NCBI RefSeq assembly: GCF_003841485.1
Contig: NZ_REFY01000007.1
Coordinates: 124,001 to 188,000 of the forward strand
DNA length: 64,000 nucleotides
Source: Natrarchaeobius halalkaliphilus
Lineage (GTDB): Archaea; Halobacteriota; Halobacteria; Halobacteriales; Natrialbaceae
Direction: 5' to 3'
Position numbers and translations under genes: made by a program. Below the pieces are notes generated by a model. It was given only the letters and a program-made list of their open reading frames with translations, made no database searches and was not told where the DNA came from. This document shows positions 12,458-25,832 of the stretch, piece after piece; position 1 is the first letter of the stretch; each line of letters opens with the position of its first letter.

Positions 12458-13918
12458 ATGGACGAATCCCGTCTCGTTGGCGTACATCTCGGCACCTCGA
12501 GTGTACGGGTTGCAACGTACGATCCCGATGGAACGCTGATCGCTGACGGTGAAGCGCCGATCGAAGAGCAGACAACCATCGCGTGGGAACGTGCACTCCG
12601 GAGTGCAGCGCCGGCGCTCCCATCGTCGGGGACCTGTTCGGTCGCCAGTACGTCCGGTACCGTACTGTTGGTCGACGAGTACGGCGAACCGGTCTTTCCG
12701 CCGCAGATGTACTACGAATCAGCGCCGGAGCAAGCCAAACGTCTCCGTCAACTGGACGTCGGAAACGATCTGACGAACTGGGACGTGGTGTCGTCGTCGG
12801 CCGGGCCACTCGCGAAGGTTCTTCAGCTGCGAGAGGACCATCCCGACCGATTCGAGGACGTCGAGTGGGTTCTCAGCCCGACGACGTGGCTCCTATATCG
12901 GCTCCGGTACGGACGCTCGTCGGTCTGGAAGACCGTCGAGACCGACTGGACGAACGCGATGAAGTTCGGGGCGGATATCACGGTTTCCATGCCCGAGTGG
13001 AACAGCTCGCTGTTCGAAGCGTGTGATCTCTCTTCAACACTGTTTCCCGCGATTCGTCCGCCAGGTTCTTACATCGGATCGGCAGAAAGCGAAGTCGCAG
13101 AACGAACCGGATTCGGTGGCTGTAAGCTGTACCAGGGAATGACGGACGGAAGCGCATCAGTGCTCGCAAACGGCTGTCTCGAGCCCGGAGACTTCAGCGT
13201 CACGTTCGGGGCGACGAGCGTGATCAAATACGTGTTGGACGAGATTACACCTCACGAGGCACTGTACTATCACCGCCATCCGCTCGATGGCTACATTCTG
13301 GGTGCGTCCTTCGACAGCGGGTCCGTTCTCCGGTGGTACTTCAATCACGTACTCGACGTCGCCCCCGAGCACGGATTCGAACTCGCGAAGTCGATCGCTC
13401 CCGGTCAAGAGTACGAGGTCTTCCTTCAGGGTCACCGCAGTCCATTGTACGATCCGTCTGTGGGGACATCACTTCTCGGGGTCGAGTGTGACACGTCACT
13501 CTCGACGGAAGCAGTTCGCGGGCGGATCGCACGGGGCCTGATGACCGGAATCGTTCTTGCAGAGTGGACGTACATCTACCGTATTCAGGAACACTTCGAC
13601 ACGACCATCGACAGAATCCAGCTCATGAACGACGGAGCCCCGAGCTTGCACGACGACTACAACTGGTGGAACGAACTCCGAGGACAGATCTGGAACCGAT
13701 CGATCACCGAGATGGAACCCAGAATGACGGCCGGACTTCTCATCCCTGCGGCACTCATTACGTCGGAGTACGCAGACAGCAACGAAGCCGTCAACTGTCT
13801 CCTGCGACAGCGTTCGGAGATCGAGCCGGCCAGCGATCAGATCGGAGACTACGACGACCGCCGAGACAGGTATCTCGACCGATGGTACCAGGTCGCTGAC
13901 CTGTACGATCGGCACTAG
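12458..13918 (+). CDS. FGGY family carbohydrate kinase
   Basis: A 486-residue sugar kinase of the xylulokinase/gluconokinase/glycerokinase family, which phosphorylates sugars or polyols with ATP. The first phosphate loop is GVHLGTSSVRV; family members usually have Asp where this protein has the first His. GMTDGSASVLANG carries the likely catalytic Asp, and VTFGATSVIKYV is the second ATP-binding domain block. The start was set at 12458 from the TATA spacing; the open frame upstream overlaps the divergent gene. It lies with an aldolase, a HAD phosphatase and an IclR regulator, which suggests kinase then aldolase steps of a sugar pathway. The sugar is unknown. Confidence 0.88.
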   Translation: MDESRLVGVHLGTSSVRVATYDPDGTLIADGEAPIEEQTTIAWERALRSAAPALPSSGTCSVASTSGTVLLVDEYGEPVFPPQMYYESAPEQAKRLRQLDVGNDLTNWDVVSSSAGPLAKVLQLREDHPDRFEDVEWVLSPTTWLLYRLRYGRSSVWKTVETDWTNAMKFGADITVSMPEWNSSLFEACDLSSTLFPAIRPPGSYIGSAESEVAERTGFGGCKLYQGMTDGSASVLANGCLEPGDFSVTFGATSVIKYVLDEITPHEALYYHRHPLDGYILGASFDSGSVLRWYFNHVLDVAPEHGFELAKSIAPGQEYEVFLQGHRSPLYDPSVGTSLLGVECDTSLSTEAVRGRIARGLMTGIVLAEWTYIYRIQEHFDTTIDRIQLMNDGAPSLHDDYNWWNELRGQIWNRSITEMEPRMTAGLLIPAALITSEYADSNEAVNCLLRQRSEIEPASDQIGDYDDRRDRYLDRWYQVADLYDRH

Positions 13919-13926
13919 TGGTCCCA

Positions 13927-14007
13927 ATACGAATCGCCGTACAGGTTTACCGACGCAAGCGCGACTGTCCTGCGGTTGCAACGGTAACGACTTTCAGCAG
14001 TTCGTAT
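13927..14007. repeat. Palindromic interspersed element, copy 1
   Basis: An imperfect double stem-loop lies directly after the kinase stop in the gap before the convergent HAD gene. Outer arms are ATACGAA and TTCGTAT; inner arms start TTACCG and end CGGTAA; the loop region holds GTCCTGCGGT. The same layout and conserved segments recur at 23721-23805 with different arm sequences that still pair. Confidence 0.6.
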
Positions 14008-14089
14008 CCTCGTCGTCTCGGAAATGAACGAGTCGACGAGGGTACACCGGAGGGGTTGGTGAACCACCGCGATCGACGGAGCAACGAGG

Positions 14090-14740
14090 TCAGTCGTCCG
14101 CACTCAACTCGAATAACAGGGTGCGAAGCTGGGGCAGATCGTCTGCAACGTACTCCGCCTCGGGAATCGGTTCCGGGTCGCCTCCGTACTCGTACCGAAC
14201 GACGGTCGTACCGGCCCGGCTGGCCGCGCGTGCGCCGTGTATCGAGTCCTCGACGACGAGCGCATCGAACGGATCGACGTCGAGCCGCTCGAGCGCGTGT
14301 TCGTAGATCGCAGGATCCGGCTTACCAGGTGCCTCGATGTCCTCGGCGCTGACGATCACGTCTGGCGCGCTCAGGTCGGAACGATCGACGACGAGCGTGA
14401 TCCACCGACGCGGTGACGAGGAGACGATACCGAAACTGGATACTCGATCCTGAAGCGACGAAACGAGCGCCGGCATCCCCTCGGTGACGGTCGCTCGCTC
14501 TCGGTACATCCTTTCGGCAAAGGCTTCGACCTCAGCTTCGAAACGGTCGGGGCCACCGGGGAGACCGTACGTCTCATCGAGCGCAACGAGACTTTCTCGA
14601 AAGTTCCGTCCGGTGACGTCCTCGAGTGTTGGCTCGCCGTCTACCGCTTCGGGAAACACTTCCGTCTGCCAGTATCGTTTCCAATGTGGCTCCGAATCGA
14701 CCAGTACACCGTCCATATCGAAGAGAACTGCTCGTGTCAT
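14090..14740 (-). CDS. HAD superfamily phosphatase (beta-phosphoglucomutase-like)
   Basis: A 216-residue subfamily IA HAD enzyme. Motif I is FDMDGVLVDSE, motif II is IVSSSPRRW, motif III is GKPDPAIY and motif IV is VVEDSIHGARAA. A four-helix cap follows motif I. The GVLVDSE signature is shared by beta-phosphoglucomutases and 2-deoxyglucose-6-phosphate-type sugar phosphatases. It sits between the FGGY kinase and the IclR regulator, so it may dephosphorylate or isomerise a sugar phosphate of the same pathway. Specificity cannot be read from the motifs. Confidence 0.88.
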   Translation of the reverse strand: MTRAVLFDMDGVLVDSEPHWKRYWQTEVFPEAVDGEPTLEDVTGRNFRESLVALDETYGLPGGPDRFEAEVEAFAERMYRERATVTEGMPALVSSLQDRVSSFGIVSSSPRRWITLVVDRSDLSAPDVIVSAEDIEAPGKPDPAIYEHALERLDVDPFDALVVEDSIHGARAASRAGTTVVRYEYGGDPEPIPEAEYVADDLPQLRTLLFELSADD

Positions 14741-16072: not shown

Positions 16073-17074
16073 ATGACATTCTATCGTGGCAGTGAACTCG
16101 AGTCAGTGTACCAAAATGCACTCTCGGACGGATTCGGACTCGTCGCATCGAACATCGCCGAGCCGAACGTTCTGATTGGCCTCATGGAAGGTGCATCACG
16201 TGCAGAATCCGATCTGCTTCTCCAGGCCTCGGCCGGTGCCTGTCGGTTCGCGGGTAACGGCGACGCGGAGGCGGGGCTGAACGCTCTCGGCGCGTATATC
16301 GACGCGCTTGCCGAGGGATTCGATATCGGCGTGTTTCTCAACATGGATCACCAAACGGACACGGAGTTCATCGAATTCCAGATGGACGAGGAGATCCCGT
16401 CGTCGGTCATGATCGACGCCTCAAGCGAATCGTTCGAAGAAAACGTCAAAATCAGTCGAGAAGTCGTTCGTATGGCCACCGAGAAAGACGCTGACGTCCT
16501 TATCGAGGCTGAACTCGGGCAGATCAAGGGTGCAGAGGACGATCTCGAGGTAGACAACGCGTTCTATACGGATCCGGAACAGGCGGTCGAGTTCGTCGAT
16601 CGAACAGGATGTGATCTGCTCGCGATATCCGTCGGCACACAACACGGCGTCGCCAAGGGAAAAGACCTGGAACTCCGCCCGGATCTGGCTGGGGAGATTC
16701 GCCAGACGTTGCGAGACCACGGACTGGATACACCGCTGGTTCTCCACGGGTCCTCCGGCGTCCAACCGGACCAACTCCGGACGATGCTCAGACACGGGAT
16801 CTGTAAAGTGAACAAAGACACACGATACCAGTACGAATACACGCGAACGGCCATGGAGTACTACGAGCGACACCGAAATTCGATCGTCCCACCGGACGCT
16901 GATCGGGATGGTCGAGACACCTTCTTCAACGAGACCGCGTGGACACCGAACAAGGATCATTTCGATCCACGGGTCGGCGGTCGCCAAATACGCGAACGTA
17001 TCGCGGAGGTACACGCGCAGCTGGCCGCCGTCTCGGGGAGCGCGGGACGAAGTCGGTACCTCGAGACGCAGTGA
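16073..17074 (+). CDS. Class II (zinc) fructose-bisphosphate-type aldolase
   Basis: A 333-residue metal-dependent aldolase. Family blocks are [15 protein letters not shown] at the N-terminal strand, FLNMDHQTD (zinc and catalytic His/Asp region), [22 protein letters not shown] (second zinc His), LHGSSGV (third zinc His) and [15 protein letters not shown] (phosphate-binding region). Class II enzymes cleave ketose 1-phosphates or 1,6-bisphosphates to dihydroxyacetone phosphate and an aldehyde. With the FGGY kinase encoded nearby, a ketose or ketose-1-phosphate pathway is plausible. The exact substrate (fructose bisphosphate, tagatose bisphosphate or a deoxy-sugar phosphate) is uncertain. Confidence 0.9.
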
Positions 17075-18201
17075 ATCGGCCGGAATGACGACCGGCGGAG
17101 AGACGCCGCGGCTATTATCGAGCGAAACCGGAGAGTTCGCCCTCATCTCGACGTCCCGCTTCGCAACTACGACGATATTTATTGTGAGATCTGCAGGTGT
17201 CGACACCCGGTCCCGGAGAACAGGTGACGACGACCGTTCGGTTCGGGGTTTATACGATCTGGTGTACGTCAGTAGTGCGACCGCGACCCGTCTTCAGTTC
17301 CACCGGTAACCCGGTACAGCAATCCGGATCACTCGAGAAACGAACCGACCGATCAAAGTTTGGCCGGAGGAGAGAAAGCCCAATATACAATATTTAAATA
17401 TATTCTGTATAAATTATAAGTTTGGAAGGTGGGTAGGCGTGGATGACGAGCGGTCAGGACGGACGAGGACTGAGTTCCTAACGACAGCCCGATAAATGTG
17501 TGAGATAGCAGCCTCTGATGGATCTGAGTACAGTTTCGAACAACAAAACACAGATTATCGATTATACGTCCGTCTTTTCGACTGATTAGTCCAGTAATAA
17601 GAATAAATGAGAACTCCCGAGCGGATACCCGGTCCGATAGTCTCAGTTCGGGCGCCCCTGTGTGTACGCGACAAACGGTCACATGATCGAAGAAGAGTGA
17701 AGAAATCGGTCGGTTCAACCGGTAGATGGCTAATGTGTGGTGGGAGAGCGACTCGAGAAGTGAACTACCCCCACCTACCGAGCTCGGGGTTGCTCACCCC
17801 TCGCTCGTTGAGGAAGGGGGCTTACCCGCCTGCGGTTCAGGTAAACGCAGTCGTTCGAACTCGTCGGAACTCCCTATCGACTACCCAGTCGGTACTTGGC
17901 CGCGTGCCAACAAACACAGAATATTATATAATATATAGTACACTATAGTACTTATTCTTTTTATCAGATAGTTCTTCGAGTGATGAGATAGACGAATGGA
18001 GTCGAAAGACTGGTCGCACGGAGTCAGTCGGGGATGGGGACTAACAACGATTCCAGCGAAACGAATCTATCGCGCAGATAGGCAATCGTTCGGCGGATCG
18101 ATCACCGCCGCGGATCGACGAGATCCACAGCCCGTCAACCGGTCGTGGCAGGCAGTCGGTTCGTTCGGTTGGAAAATGAGGTCGTAGACGGCGAGCGAGG
18201 G
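17075..18201. other. Gene-poor gap between the aldolase gene and the archaellum cluster
   Basis: This 1127-base stretch has no frame with convincing protein character. It contains AT-rich patches near 17385-17425 and 17920-17965 and the possible IS end described at 17759-17845. It separates two converging transcription units. Confidence 0.6.
17759..17845 (+). mobile_element. Possible relic of an IS200/IS605-type right end
   Basis: A GC-rich stretch beginning AGTGAACTACCCCCACCTAC with a small hairpin (GGGGT and ACCCC arms, 17786-17800) and a second possible stem resembles the structured 3' ends of haloarchaeal TnpB-type elements. It stands alone between AT-rich sequences with no transposase frame. 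This is pattern recall rather than alignment, so the call is tentative. Confidence 0.35.
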
Positions 18202-19875
18202 CTAATCAGGACGAGTCGCGTGGAACGGCAACCCTTCGACGCCGTCACGCTGGAACGAATCGATCGTCGCGTTCACCTCGTGGTACTCGAGGATGTTCTC
18301 CTGAATCATCCGTTCGATGATGTCCGAACGGAACTGCAGATCGTCGTAGATGTCGCGCGTATCGGCGTAGCCGAGCAACGTGGCGATCTGTTCTTCGAGA
18401 ACGTAGGAGTTGTTCATGCCCTGGAAGACGATTTCGTCTTCGACCGGATCCCAGTAGAACACCTGCCGGGTGACGACGCCGTCCATCTGTTCGGAGTAGC
18501 CCTCGATCTCCTGTACGCTCGTGACGCGCCGGAGGACGTCGTCGCCTTGCTTGACGCGGTTCTGGAACAGCGCGACGTCCGCGTTGTCCATGAACGTCTC
18601 GGGGACGTTGATCGGGTCACCCGTAAACCGCTGGATCATCGAGACGATATCGCTCGCGTGGAACGTCAGCATCACCGGGTGGCCGGTCTGTGCGGCCTGG
18701 AACGCCATTCGTCCTTCCTCCCCACGAACCTCACCCACGACGATGTACTCGGGACGTGACCGGAGTGCGGCCTCGACCAGGTTGAACATGTCGACGTCCG
18801 CGCTGTCCTCGCTGCGGCTCTCTCGGGTCAGTAACTGCTGCCACGTATCGTGTGGTGGGAGAACTTCCGCCGTGTCCTCGGCCGTGTAAATCTTCGAGTC
18901 GCGGGGAATGAACGTCATGATACTGTTCAACGTCGTCGTCTTTCCCGACGCCGTTTCCCCGACGACGAACACGGTTCGCTCGTTCTCGAGGCACAGCCAG
19001 AGGTACGCCGCGAGCTCCGGAGAAAGCGTCCCCCAGTTCGTAATCTGGGTGACCGACAACGGGACCTCATCGCCCTGACGGATGGTGAGGCTCGGCCCTT
19101 TCACGCTCACGTCGTCGCTGTAGATCACGTTCAGACGCGAGCCGTCGGGCAGCGTGGAGTCGATGATGGGTTCGGCGTCCGTCATCGGGTTCCCGATCCG
19201 TTCGCCCATGTTGCTGAGCCAGCTGTCGAACTCCTCTTTGGTGCCGAAATCGACGGTGGTCTCGACTAACCCGTACACGCCGTGGTCGACGTAGCACTCG
19301 CTGGGGCCGATGACGTGAATGTCCTCGTTGGCCGGGTCACGCATGACCGGCTCGAGCGGACCGAGGCCGACGATGTCTCGGTTGAGTCGATACCGGATGT
19401 TTTCGAACGTCTCCTGAGGAATCTCCTGGATACCGGGGTGAAACTTGATTTTTAGCCGCTCGAGGAGGTTGTCGGGTTCGGTGCCGCGAATGTGTGTCGA
19501 CTCGGCAAGCAACTCCTCGATACGATCCCCGTACTCGGCTTCCTTCTCCGGCGCTTGCTTGCTTGCACTACGACGGAGGAGCGAGTCTTTGACCGCCGAG
19601 AAAACGATCTGCTCTTCTTCCGAGAGCGTCGGCTCGACCGCGAAGTACTGCATTTTGGTTCCGACGTCACCGTAGATATGACTGTAAATGGGACCACCGA
19701 CCGGATACAATACGTTCGGGTGATTCGATTCGTACTCCCCGGTCGGCTCGTCGATGAGGACCGGAAACTCTCCAGTTATCTGTCTGAACTTCTTTAGGTG
19801 TTCGCGAAGATGAGGGCGGCGAGCCGCAAGCTCCTGAAGCTCGTCTGACGGTTTTGGCGTCCCCATTTCAGTCAT
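18202..19875 (-). CDS. arlI: Archaellum motor ATPase ArlI (FlaI)
   Basis: A 557-residue type II/IV secretion superfamily ATPase that powers archaellum assembly and rotation at the cytoplasmic face. Walker A is GETASGKTT, the Asp box region holds YTAEDTAEVLPP, Walker B with its Glu is EYIVVGEVRGEEG, and the His box is TGHPVMLTFHASD. The long N-terminal domain (1-230) is typical of ArlI. It is the last gene of the minus-strand arlCE-arlH-arlI group, 15 bases after arlH. In many haloarchaea arlJ follows directly; here arlJ lies about 4 kb upstream instead. Confidence 0.95.
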   Translation of the reverse strand: MTEMGTPKPSDELQELAARRPHLREHLKKFRQITGEFPVLIDEPTGEYESNHPNVLYPVGGPIYSHIYGDVGTKMQYFAVEPTLSEEEQIVFSAVKDSLLRRSASKQAPEKEAEYGDRIEELLAESTHIRGTEPDNLLERLKIKFHPGIQEIPQETFENIRYRLNRDIVGLGPLEPVMRDPANEDIHVIGPSECYVDHGVYGLVETTVDFGTKEEFDSWLSNMGERIGNPMTDAEPIIDSTLPDGSRLNVIYSDDVSVKGPSLTIRQGDEVPLSVTQITNWGTLSPELAAYLWLCLENERTVFVVGETASGKTTTLNSIMTFIPRDSKIYTAEDTAEVLPPHDTWQQLLTRESRSEDSADVDMFNLVEAALRSRPEYIVVGEVRGEEGRMAFQAAQTGHPVMLTFHASDIVSMIQRFTGDPINVPETFMDNADVALFQNRVKQGDDVLRRVTSVQEIEGYSEQMDGVVTRQVFYWDPVEDEIVFQGMNNSYVLEEQIATLLGYADTRDIYDDLQFRSDIIERMIQENILEYHEVNATIDSFQRDGVEGLPFHATRPD

Positions 19876-23039: not shown

Positions 23040-23696
23040 ATGCCGGACAGTAACAAGGAAAAAAACCCAAAAGAGAAAGCCGACGTTCCGCCTGTACTCC
23101 CAGGCGAACAGCCAAAGCCCTCCGGAAGTGGCGGTGCTCTCTCCCCAGAGGAGCTCGATTTTACCGACAGTCCGTACGTCTCGAAAGTGTCCGAAGGGAG
23201 GTACGTCGTTTCTTCGGAGAAGCGTCCGAGCGGCGTCCCGGACACCACCACGGGTTCGAATCGAACCCCACCGCAACCACAGAATCAGCCACATCGCCAG
23301 CACGACTCAGCGACGAATCGAGCGAACGTCTCGGAGCGTCCGGCCGGCGATGGACATCAGCCCATCCAGAGCCCGGAAGTGGCACGATCGGTTCTTGCGG
23401 ACGAGCTCGATCGGACGGATGCACGGTTCGCACTCGACATCATCGCACAGTTCGACCGGACGGCTGTCCGTCATCGAACGAGTTCCGACGACGTCGTCGG
23501 GACGTTCAATAATCTTGTTCTCTGGTACGCCCAGCACGTCGCGACGGAGACGCCAACCCAGCGAACGGCCTCGCTGCTCATCGAGCGCTCCGAGTTCGCA
23601 CCACCACTGTCACCGATGCAACTTCGACAGGCGGCAAGAAAGCACGGTCTCGATAAGTCGAGTAGTCTGGGAGAACTGCTCGAGGCGATCGAATAA
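23040..23696 (+). CDS. Haloarchaeal archaellum-cluster accessory protein, function unknown
   Basis: A 218-residue soluble protein. The first 110 residues are Pro/Gly/Ser/Gln-rich and probably disordered, starting MPDSNKEKNPKEKADVPP. The C-terminal half (about 110-218) is compact and helical (SVLADELDRTDARFALDIIA, FNNLVLWYAQHVATETPTQR, and MQLRQAARKHGLDKSSSLGE). I do not recognise a named domain, though proteins of this kind are annotated as flagella cluster proteins in haloarchaea. It is the only plus-strand gene inside the archaellum block, which argues for its own regulation. The start was set by a TATA box 23 bases upstream. Confidence 0.75.
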   Translation: MPDSNKEKNPKEKADVPPVLPGEQPKPSGSGGALSPEELDFTDSPYVSKVSEGRYVVSSEKRPSGVPDTTTGSNRTPPQPQNQPHRQHDSATNRANVSERPAGDGHQPIQSPEVARSVLADELDRTDARFALDIIAQFDRTAVRHRTSSDDVVGTFNNLVLWYAQHVATETPTQRTASLLIERSEFAPPLSPMQLRQAARKHGLDKSSSLGELLEAIE

Positions 23697-23720
23697 CGGG
23701 AAGCGAACTCGCGTCGGCTC

Positions 23721-23805
23721 ATACGGTTTGCTGTGACTTTTTACCGGAGCGACCGCGAACCGTCCTGCGGTCGCTCCGGTGACGACTTACAGTAGACCGT
23801 ATCAT
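23721..23805. repeat. Palindromic interspersed element, copy 2
   Basis: A nested hairpin lies in the gap between convergent genes. The inner stem is perfect over 14 bp (ACCGGAGCGACCGC 23743-23756 with GCGGTCGCTCCGGT 23767-23780, 10-base loop). The outer stem pairs ATACGGTTTGCTGT with ACAGTAGACCGTAT using two G-U pairs. Layout and conserved blocks match the copy at 13927-14007. Confidence 0.7.
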
Positions 23806-23883
23806 AGGGACCGTTGTAAATCGTTTCCGGTACAACCACGACTGGCCTGCTGTTATACCGATAAACCGTCACAACAGTCCTTA

Positions 23884-24018
23884 TCAGGCACCGTTGACGA
23901 GGATAACGGCACCCATAAAGATCGACAACAGGATCGCGATACCGAACAGTAATACACCACTCTGGGCCGATTCGACGGCTCGAGTCGACAGATCGAATCC
24001 GGAACGCTTGCGAGTCAT
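23884..24018 (-). CDS. Small single-span membrane protein downstream of arlJ
   Basis: A 44-residue frame starting MTRKRSGFDLSTRAVESAQS, followed by one hydrophobic helix (residues about 21-42) and two stop codons. A basic N-terminus then one helix suggests an N-in membrane peptide. It lies 86 bases after the arlJ stop on the same strand and so may be the last gene of that operon. I recognise no family. The support is the coherent topology, the position, and the lack of any other gene in the gap. Confidence 0.55.
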   Translation of the reverse strand: MTRKRSGFDLSTRAVESAQSGVLLFGIAILLSIFMGAVILVNGA

Positions 24019-24104: not shown

Positions 24105-25832
24105 CTATATATCCACCGTGATTATCAGGTCGACCAGCCGTTCCGTAATCGTCCCCGTGACCGCGCCGATCCAGAGCAACGCCGTGAAGTGAACGTACGA
24201 ATTGCCGAAGTGACCGCCGTCAGCGACCCGAAGCACGAGCGACGAGATGAAAGCGTTGAAGATCAACACCAGAACGATCAGAAATCGAAGGATCGGAACG
24301 TTGTACTGTTCGGTATGAATCAGCGTTCCACCGATGACTTCGCCGTCCGTGTTGATATCGAAACTCGAGAGCATCACCGCGAGCTCGAGGCCGATAAAGA
24401 ACGCAAACGCGGACGCGGCCGTGATGCCGTAGACGACACCGACCAACGTCGTCGTTTCCTGGCGTCGTTCTTCGCGCAAATTGACGATTTCGTTCATGTT
24501 CTGGCTGATGAGTTCCCCGAGTCGTTTCGGGCCGCCACCCATGTCTCTGCCGACCAGATACATCTCGCTGAACTTCTGGATCAGAAACGAGTGCGTATCG
24601 CCCGTGAAATACCGCCACGACTTTTCAGTGCTCAGGCGCATGTTCAGCCGTCGGTAGAGATCGTCTACGTTGTCCGAAAGCGGGCCGAAGTCTTTCGTCC
24701 GAAGCGTCGAGAGAACCTCGGTAGTCGTGCTTTGCTTTGCACTTTCGCTGGTCCCGAGCGCGCGGATGAAGTTGGGGAACATCCGATCGCGGTCGACGAC
24801 GCGTCGCTCCTCGTACCAGAACACCGATCCCGGAATCAAAAGCGGCAGCGTCGCGATCGGCATGTAGAGCAAGAGCGGAAGGGTATTGCTCGATATCGGG
24901 GTTGGACTCGGAGCCAGATCGTAGAACGCCAGGATAAGCCAGGTGATAACGAGTGCGGTGAGGCCGACCCCGGCGACGGTAGATCCGAGTAATCGTTTTT
25001 TGGTCGTGGTTCGATAACCGTCCTCGAGATACCAGACCGGATCGTCGGGAACGACCGCTTTGATGATGAAGAAAAACCCGATCTGAACGAAGATGAACAT
25101 CACGATGACGATACTCGCCGTGATCGTCGGATCGTTCCCCGTCAGCAACGGCAAGACGATTGCGAACACGAGCGCGAACGTCATCGAAATGATCAACGAG
25201 AGATACAGGTCTTTCAGGACGTCCAGGTTTCCGAGTGACTGTCGATAGACCGTGGAGTACTTTTCGATCAACACGTCCTGTTCCTGAAAGAGGAACTCGT
25301 CGAGGCTCTGGCCGGCACCGAGCGTGTAGGCCATCCGTTCCAGGAGGTCTTCGACCGATTCGCTCGGAACGTCCGTGGCTCGTCGACGACAGGCGTCACC
25401 CAGACTCAGGTGCCAGACGTCGACCAGATCGACGACGCGTTGAATCTCGGCAGCCAGATCGCCGTACTCCTCTTCGGCCGCAAGTCGTCGCAACACCTCC
25501 ATCCGATCGATGTTCGTCGTCGACAGGATCGTCATGTGAATAACGAAGAGGTGGAATCGGTTCTCCATCTCGATACGGCGCTGATCGACGGCTAATCGCG
25601 GATATCCGATCGCAGCGACGAAGATCAACAGACCGAGCGCCGGCAACAGGAGACGGACGAGAACGAATCCGTCGAACAGCACGCCACCGGCGATCGTCCC
25701 AATGAAGACGAGAAGCGACGGGAAAACGATTCCCAGAATGTAGATCCTCGCCGGGAGATCCATCTCGTCGTACGCCCGAAGAATCGACGTACCGAGTTCG
25801 TTCGCCGTCGCCGCGTTTCCAGCGATGCCCAT
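24105..25832 (-). CDS. arlJ: Archaellum membrane platform protein ArlJ (FlaJ)
   Basis: A 575-residue polytopic protein of the TadC/PilC type that anchors the ArlI motor in the membrane. Hydrophobic segments cluster at about 30-85, 210-260, 285-340 and 475-575, separated by two cytoplasmic helical domains with the family patterns HMTILSTTNIDRMEVLRRLA and FIRALGTSESAKQSTTTEVL. The gene follows arlD after 267 bases and is not next to arlI, its direct partner, which is unusual compared with the common arlH-arlI-arlJ order. Confidence 0.94.
   Translation of the reverse strand: MGIAGNAATANELGTSILRAYDEMDLPARIYILGIVFPSLLVFIGTIAGGVLFDGFVLVRLLLPALGLLIFVAAIGYPRLAVDQRRIEMENRFHLFVIHMTILSTTNIDRMEVLRRLAAEEEYGDLAAEIQRVVDLVDVWHLSLGDACRRRATDVPSESVEDLLERMAYTLGAGQSLDEFLFQEQDVLIEKYSTVYRQSLGNLDVLKDLYLSLIISMTFALVFAIVLPLLTGNDPTITASIVIVMFIFVQIGFFFIIKAVVPDDPVWYLEDGYRTTTKKRLLGSTVAGVGLTALVITWLILAFYDLAPSPTPISSNTLPLLLYMPIATLPLLIPGSVFWYEERRVVDRDRMFPNFIRALGTSESAKQSTTTEVLSTLRTKDFGPLSDNVDDLYRRLNMRLSTEKSWRYFTGDTHSFLIQKFSEMYLVGRDMGGGPKRLGELISQNMNEIVNLREERRQETTTLVGVVYGITAASAFAFFIGLELAVMLSSFDINTDGEVIGGTLIHTEQYNVPILRFLIVLVLIFNAFISSLVLRVADGGHFGNSYVHFTALLWIGAVTGTITERLVDLIITVDI

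Follow-up and report, generated by a model that had tools for sequence, protein, structure and literature searches.

Two short palindromic stretches in a 64,000-nt segment of Natrarchaeobius halalkaliphilus DNA (the whole stretch analysed here, referred to as the window) raise the question of what kind of repeat they represent and why they lie where genes end. A preliminary description had read them as a pair of copies of an interspersed REP/MITE-like or structured-RNA family, possibly acting as a bidirectional terminator between convergent genes. Sequence comparison confirmed that both stretches carry the same conserved blocks in the same order, and both indeed lie in gaps between convergent genes (Table 1). 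The pair was not the whole set, however, as four copies of a hairpin element of ca. 80 bp were found in the window with a covariance model (R1) and nhmmer. Since copies 1 and 2 are part of the alignment behind R1, their matches to this model hold by construction, whereas copies 3 and 4 were outside the training alignment and yet match it. A right-arm pattern drawn from copies 1 and 2 gave six matches in the window against a mean of 1.07 (with none of 100 shuffles reaching six), while the core GTCCTGCGGTYGC alone showed no excess over chance there (7 vs. 4.99).

Table 1. The four element copies in the window, parts of copies 1 and 2, and neighbouring called genes (positions are those of the window).
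Feature	Position	Strand	Basis or remark
Element copy 1	13925..14009	+	R1 57.5 bits, by construction; nhmmer 3.2e-15
Copy 1 palindrome TACG..CGTA	about 13928-14006	+	Sequence
Element copy 2	23719..23804	+	R1 95.2 bits, by construction; BLAST seed of the family
Copy 2 parts	TCA 23719-23721, palindrome 23722-23801, TCA 23802-23804	+	Sequence
Copy 2 internal loop, left side (unpaired, asymmetric)	23737..23740	+	Model columns 19-22
Copy 2 hairpin loop GAACCGTCCT	23757..23766	+	Family has the loop in both orientations
Copy 2 internal loop, right side	23783..23786	+	Model columns 65-68
Element copy 3, diverged	17250..17331	-	R1 35 bits, E 7.5e-6; nhmmer 1e-11
Element copy 4, other subfamily	23802..23886	-	R1 62.3 bits, filters off; nhmmer 1.7e-10
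Called gene upstream of copy 1	12458..13918	+	Stop TAG, 6 bp before the element; crude gene call, ORF list
Convergent gene downstream of copy 1	14090..14740	-	Gene call, ORF list
Genes flanking copy 3, convergent gap	16073-17074 / 18202-19710	+ / -	Gene context
Called gene upstream of copy 2	23040..23696	+	Stop TAA; ORF list has a longer ORF from 22962
Convergent gene downstream of copies 2 and 4	24105..25832	-	Gene call, ORF list

Copies 2 and 4 adjoin each other and have one TCA triplet in common, which together with the outer TCA at 23884-23886 yields the arrangement TCA-element-TCA-element-TCA. From this arrangement, elements appear to use the triplet of other elements as an insertion site. 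Two adjoining copies with one common triplet were likewise seen in another locus (L079:7293-7459). Copy 1 is old, since its flanking triplets have decayed (CAA and TCC) and its RNA folding is barely better than that of shuffled sequences (z of -2.05 and -1.09 for the two strands); copy 2 folds strongly (z of -8.61 and -5.17).

The preliminary description named two outcomes that would speak against it (a lack of further copies in the genome and a lack of covariation in a larger alignment), and neither was observed. A BLAST search with copy 2 against its own 3.51-Mb genome yielded 40 places, itself included (40 of 110 candidates being scored, and copy 1 not among these 40), and a pattern for the outer arms gave 223 matches vs. 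a single one for the reversed control. In total, at least 110 distinct copies were recovered from this genome, 106 of them full; the true number may be higher, as 150 of 2593 candidates were scored in the model search. The flanks of the dispersed copies are unlike each other. By BLAST, 37 of 100 genomes contained a match (the own genome included), all within the own family, and with the covariance model the element was found in 117 of 293 sampled genomes of the order, covering several families. A draw from the whole phylum gave 22 of 294 genomes, all 22 belonging to the order, although the share of the 294 taken from outside the order is not given; both covariance-model runs used stricter filters, at which weak matches are lost. 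The at least 80 named matches are mainly from Natrialbaceae (i.e., Natrialba, Natrinema, Natronococcus, Natrarchaeobius, Salinadaptatus and others), with Halorhabdus and Halorientalis also among the matches listed. One viral contig matched the exact arm pattern, although the matching site does not form a full element. In all, 318 places were reduced to 295 by discarding duplicates and copies no more than 30 bp away from the end of a locus, the 295 comprising 277 full copies (106 from the own genome and 171 from others) and 18 partial ones that were kept outside the 277.

Two related forms were encountered along the way. Variants of ca. 137 bp, which have ends of this kind but ca. 57 bp more inner sequence, are present at L079:6115-6251 and L102:5428-5564. 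Another palindrome-like family, comparable in plan (TAGTGCCCACTGCAAGTCATTG... and TAGTAGCCACTGCAAGTCATTG...), is present in two Natrialbaceae genomes (L097:5567 and L080:2925), where TTA and CTA take the place of the flanking TSA.

The element itself is a non-coding, imperfect palindrome of 79-80 bp with the ends TACGG...CCGTA. In an alignment of 73 diverse copies (from 84 representatives), its plan reads TSA-TACGG-outer arm-internal loop-inner stem-10-nt loop-inner stem-internal loop-outer arm-CCGTA-TSA, and including the flanking triplets it measures 85-86 positions in 248/277 full copies. In this alignment, the outer stem pairs in 96.8% of cells and the inner stem in 91.5%, with changes on both sides in 7/14 and 9/15 pairs, respectively, and the internal loop (columns 19-22 with 65-68) is paired in only 14.9% of cells. 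That the arms differ and still pair, as the preliminary description had claimed, was borne out by a covariation test on the same 73 copies, in which 159 double-changed cells were counted vs. 51.4 in shuffles, and 20 covarying pairs vs. 12.0 (none of 500 shuffles reaching either value). When the pairing partners were slid, at most 35 double-changed cells remained and pairing fell from 81.8% to at most 44.2%, although both controls flatter the result, since shuffles ignore relatedness and the structure was drawn from the same sequences. The proposed structured family is thus supported as regards structure. Covariation is no proof of RNA, because a DNA hairpin or a palindrome-correcting mutation would leave the same mark, and Rfam gave no hit for four loci (L001, L004, L038 and L041) even with E values of up to 1 allowed.

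The hairpin loop bears on such correction. Loop orientation was compared among full copies that span exactly 86 positions (181 in number). Of these, 12 copy pairs (which are not independent) are identical outside the loop while the loop is exactly inverted, and four clusters hold both loop orientations; arm-to-arm exchange therefore happens. Small loop inversions in the hairpins of plastid spacers offer a parallel. It is conceivable, though less likely than not, that the covariation reflects no selection but template switching during replication, which would correct the palindrome and also invert the loop, and that mobility is that of an ordinary MITE. The inverted pairs are what this explanation would lead one to expect, but correction should also erase the mismatch in the internal loop, which nevertheless stays unpaired, and the length of the element is nearly fixed. 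Near-fixed length, conserved unpaired loop and covariation, when considered jointly, suggest that the hairpin is what is recognised.

The flanks pointed to insertion. An exact direct repeat of TSA borders 221/277 full copies (TGA/TGA in 118 and TCA/TCA in 103), while mixed triplets are rare (TCA/TGA in 3 and TGA/TCA in 1) and the remaining 52 carry at least one non-TSA triplet, so that the exact pair is absent in 56/277 overall. Mutual information between both flanks amounts to 0.84 bit at the middle base and to at most 0.09 elsewhere. Together, the flanks yield a palindromic target consensus, CGAC-TSA-GTCG, which is also present, more weakly, at sites that were not called as stop codons. Copy number, palindrome, 3-bp direct repeats and target consensus can all be read from the sequence itself, and the direct repeat presumably stems from staggered cutting.

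In 130/277 full copies, the direct repeat is exactly the stop codon of the adjacent called gene, and in 147/277 it is not. Non-coding TSA sites would coincide with stops in 6.4% of cases if weighted uniformly and in 19% if weighted by the motif, these expectations being derived from 119 named loci and the window, whereas the observed stop counts also take in loci of the own genome; all gene calls come from a crude codon-usage caller. Across the 119 genome-collection loci and the window, the occupied stop is TGA in 74/75 cases. Stops are occupied by 59/89 copies in convergent gaps, 69/136 in tandem gaps and 0/33 in divergent gaps. For convergent gaps, the uniform expectation from the 119 loci and the window is 16%, rising to 37% under a PWM built on non-stop sites and to 52% under one built on all sites. 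The observed share is only moderately above the latter two values, indicating that the motif explains most of the stop preference, with a residue remaining. With respect to the gene whose stop is occupied, 78 copies lie in the same orientation and 52 in the opposite one, from which we draw no conclusion. Among 13 copies on NCBI-annotated plasmids (from 26 match rows, some of which repeat a place and four of which lack annotation), the annotated stop falls exactly on the triplet in five, is off by one in placement in two more (both behind glyA), and does not coincide in six; in one match listing all gene-overlapping plasmid matches were taken, which can raise the stop-codon share.

For 12 of the 110 own copies, all chosen at called stops, the corresponding gene ends were compared in three congeners (G001-G003), using best BLAST matches as presumed orthologues and no trees. 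Nine loci gave such orthologues and three (L026, L014 and L177) gave none. The stop lies at the same position in 18/22 cases (11 TGA and 7 TAA or TAG), and the element is absent near 16 of these 18 gene ends, the two others being the orthologous gene ends of L009 in G001 and of L015 in G003. In the remaining 4/22 cases, concerning two of the nine loci (L211 and L222), the orthologues end elsewhere. This shows that the triplet is the native stop at most tested loci and that occupancy is variable. None of these comparisons yielded an empty site that could be aligned cleanly on either side of the element, as the gene side aligns and the far side has diverged. Around position 1634 of L243 (from congener G003), a short-repeat run, TGAGACG..., follows the orthologous TGA stop and possibly represents element remnants. 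Both the stop-codon coincidence and the element-free gene ends of congeners are apparent from these alignments and gene calls, and gene ends of the form ...GAC TGA are probably common enough to make the target a stop-codon motif.

The preference for stops could also result from selection after insertion instead of targeting, and several features of gene context fit this. None of the 295 copies extends more than 40 bp into a called gene, although coding TSA sites outnumber those outside (15529 vs. 5680), and divergent gaps hold the fewest copies. Yet in convergent gaps, whose positions are all 3' flanks, 59/89 copies are at stops vs. 16% of TSA sites, and the target motif also holds at non-stop sites. 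We therefore regard selection as an unlikely source of the preference.

Still more doubtful is the terminator function. Excluding the 20/295 copies at locus edges, and leaving two loci out of the gene context (L112, from Lachnospiraceae and taken as a chance match, and L171), 93/275 copies lie in convergent, 148/275 in tandem and 34/275 in divergent gaps. Per kb, copies are enriched in convergent gaps (1.65, vs. 0.97 in tandem and 0.51 in divergent ones, with the background taken from the 119 named loci and the window). A selected bidirectional terminator or 3'-end RNA structure, with dispersal being only secondary, would account for this enrichment at gene ends and in convergent gaps, as well as for the base-pair covariation and the stable RNA folding of copy 2. 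A bidirectional archaeal intrinsic terminator is expected to have a T tract on both strands, however, and a T5 run was found in 33/277 copies on one strand and in 0/277 on the other. Moreover, most orthologous gene ends with the stop at the same position do without the element, copies occur in divergent gaps, Rfam gave no match for the four loci, and position follows an 11-bp DNA motif. The enrichment at gene ends in fact follows largely from this target motif, so that position is largely explained by the target. The bidirectional terminator of the preliminary description thus found no backing, and a selected terminator or RNA structure appears very unlikely, although the element may have a side effect on transcript ends.

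No parent element emerged. In 303 records (1.56 Mb, a set that counts overlapping loci more than once), a search for pairs of ends that carry identical TSA triplets and are separated by 400-3500 bp revealed nothing like a longer element, and each of the 24 pairs in which at least 10/14 end bases match includes a known 80-bp copy on one side or on both. None of six own PF01609 loci has element-like ends, DDE_Tnp_4 (PF13359) matched in 0/61 genomes (own included), and PF00665 and PF12762 gave no match in the own genome, in a mobiliser search that covered these families, Y1_Tnp and part of the sequence.

Y1_Tnp (PF01797), on the other hand, is present in the own genome and in 41/61 sampled genomes, and the palindrome with its conserved mismatches, high copy number, extragenic location, near-fixed length, covariation and inverted tips would fit recognition of a folded strand, as in a REP/REPIN-like element that moves as a single-stranded hairpin by means of a Y1 (RAYT/IS200-type) transposase. 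The Y1 genes nevertheless show neither linkage nor consistent co-occurrence with the element: 30 Y1 loci (96.6 kb) contain none, and the genomes G001 and G025 carry elements without any Y1_Tnp match. In addition, 3-bp direct repeats lie on both sides of the element, whereas IS605-type elements are described as inserting without target duplications (PMC3119063). A Y1 transposase is therefore disfavoured as mobiliser, and such a REP/REPIN-like origin seems quite improbable. As a separate observation, equally scoring Y1 transposase genes are located near both ends of own contig C2 (C2:78-434 and C2:665088-665444), a placement that would fit an assembly break in a repeated IS200-type element.

Taken together, we consider the repeat most likely a non-autonomous, MITE-like element that is mobilised in trans into a palindromic TSA target, with TGA stop codons as frequent landing sites. 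The MITE-like half of the original assignment is upheld by the many copies, inverted ends, 3-bp repeat and presence/absence at orthologous gene ends, while REP proper is not supported, in view of that same repeat and of the element-free Y1 loci. A trans-acting enzyme would cut the CGAC-TSA-GTCG target with a 3-bp stagger, and the palindrome would be inserted with duplication of the TSA (i.e., TGA, or TCA on the other strand). At a gene end, this duplication would restore the stop codon and leave the host gene undamaged. TGA stops would be frequent landing sites because the target is matched more closely by stops than by the remaining non-coding TSA sites. Given a short duplication of fixed length, we infer a DDE-type transposase as mobiliser, and the hairpin form likely matters for mobility. 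A bolder and tentative version, which we hold to be rather unlikely, is that of a new kind of archaeal mobile element, a folded hairpin moved by an undescribed enzyme that recognises its shape, with the haloarchaeal TGA stop being in effect the integration site and spread being nearly costless. Were this so, the shape cues would be the paired arms, the fixed internal loop, the invertible tip and the fixed length of 80 nt, and the enzyme would be encoded by either the host or the element.

The coincidence of a direct repeat with the stop codon of the adjacent called gene appears to be new here. It would provide a sequence-level example of a mobile element that spares its host by using a duplicated stop codon as frequent landing site, and a target compatible with stop codons is unusual for a MITE-like element. 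Given its high number (at least 110 copies in 3.5 Mb) and its wide occurrence across one archaeal order, an element with no mobiliser known points to a transposition system still to be identified. Moreover, a hairpin of 80 nt comes to lie immediately after the stop codon in many genes, where it may affect mRNA 3' ends and translation of the gene end.

Among known systems, the IS1031 subgroup of IS5 and PIF/Harbinger elements make a 3-bp, TNA-type duplication in a palindromic target. The present element resembles them in its 3-bp duplication and palindromic target, but none of the 61 genomes has a DDE_Tnp_4 match and the own PF01609 loci are without such ends. REP/REPIN sequences with their RAYT are palindromic, extragenic and of high copy number, with a mismatched stem, and insert without target duplication. 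Membership of this group was rejected in view of the 3-bp direct repeat and the lack of a linked Y1 gene in the 30 loci, and here it is the stop codon itself that is duplicated. REPs can lie near stops in Escherichia coli as well, with 446/4072 located within 15 nt (PMC12306157). PATEs are likewise haloarchaeal, non-coding and palindromic, but as IS605-type elements they have no terminal inverted repeats and no duplication (PMC3119063). Assignment to PATEs or IS200-IS605 was rejected because the present element has paired inverted ends and direct repeats.

A literature search covering open-licence papers (with ISfinder outside its scope) gave no description of the present repeat, nor of any element duplicating a stop codon. 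Haloarchaeal MITEs are too short to code, bordered by terminal inverted repeats, often flanked by a target duplication and mobilised in trans (PMC3119063, PMC10264941). The present element is like them (i.e., the Haloquadratum MITEs, MITEHsal2 and ISH2) in being short and non-coding with inverted ends and a target duplication. MITEHsal2 measures 411-413 bp and has 6-8 bp duplications, and ISH2, ca. 520 bp long in Haloquadratum, has ends like those of ISH8 and duplicates 10 bp (PMC3119063, PMC10264941), whereas the present element is 80 bp long and palindromic throughout, with a 3-bp TSA and no parent found; in Halobacterium, the commonest target duplications are 5, 8 and 10 bp (PMC3119063). 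The SMR-A repeats of Haloquadratum are described as ca. 110 bp long and present in many copies, with prominent inverted ends unrelated to known transposons, a strong target preference and an enigmatic mobilisation (PMC3119063). SMR-A makes no duplication and targets PATE/IS605 palindromes, whereas the present element duplicates TSA in CGAC-TSA-GTCG sites and stop codons; the 221/277 exact TSA repeats and this target led us to reject membership of SMR-A. The closest relatives in kind of the present element are the haloarchaeal MITEs, together with the enigmatic SMRs of Haloquadratum.
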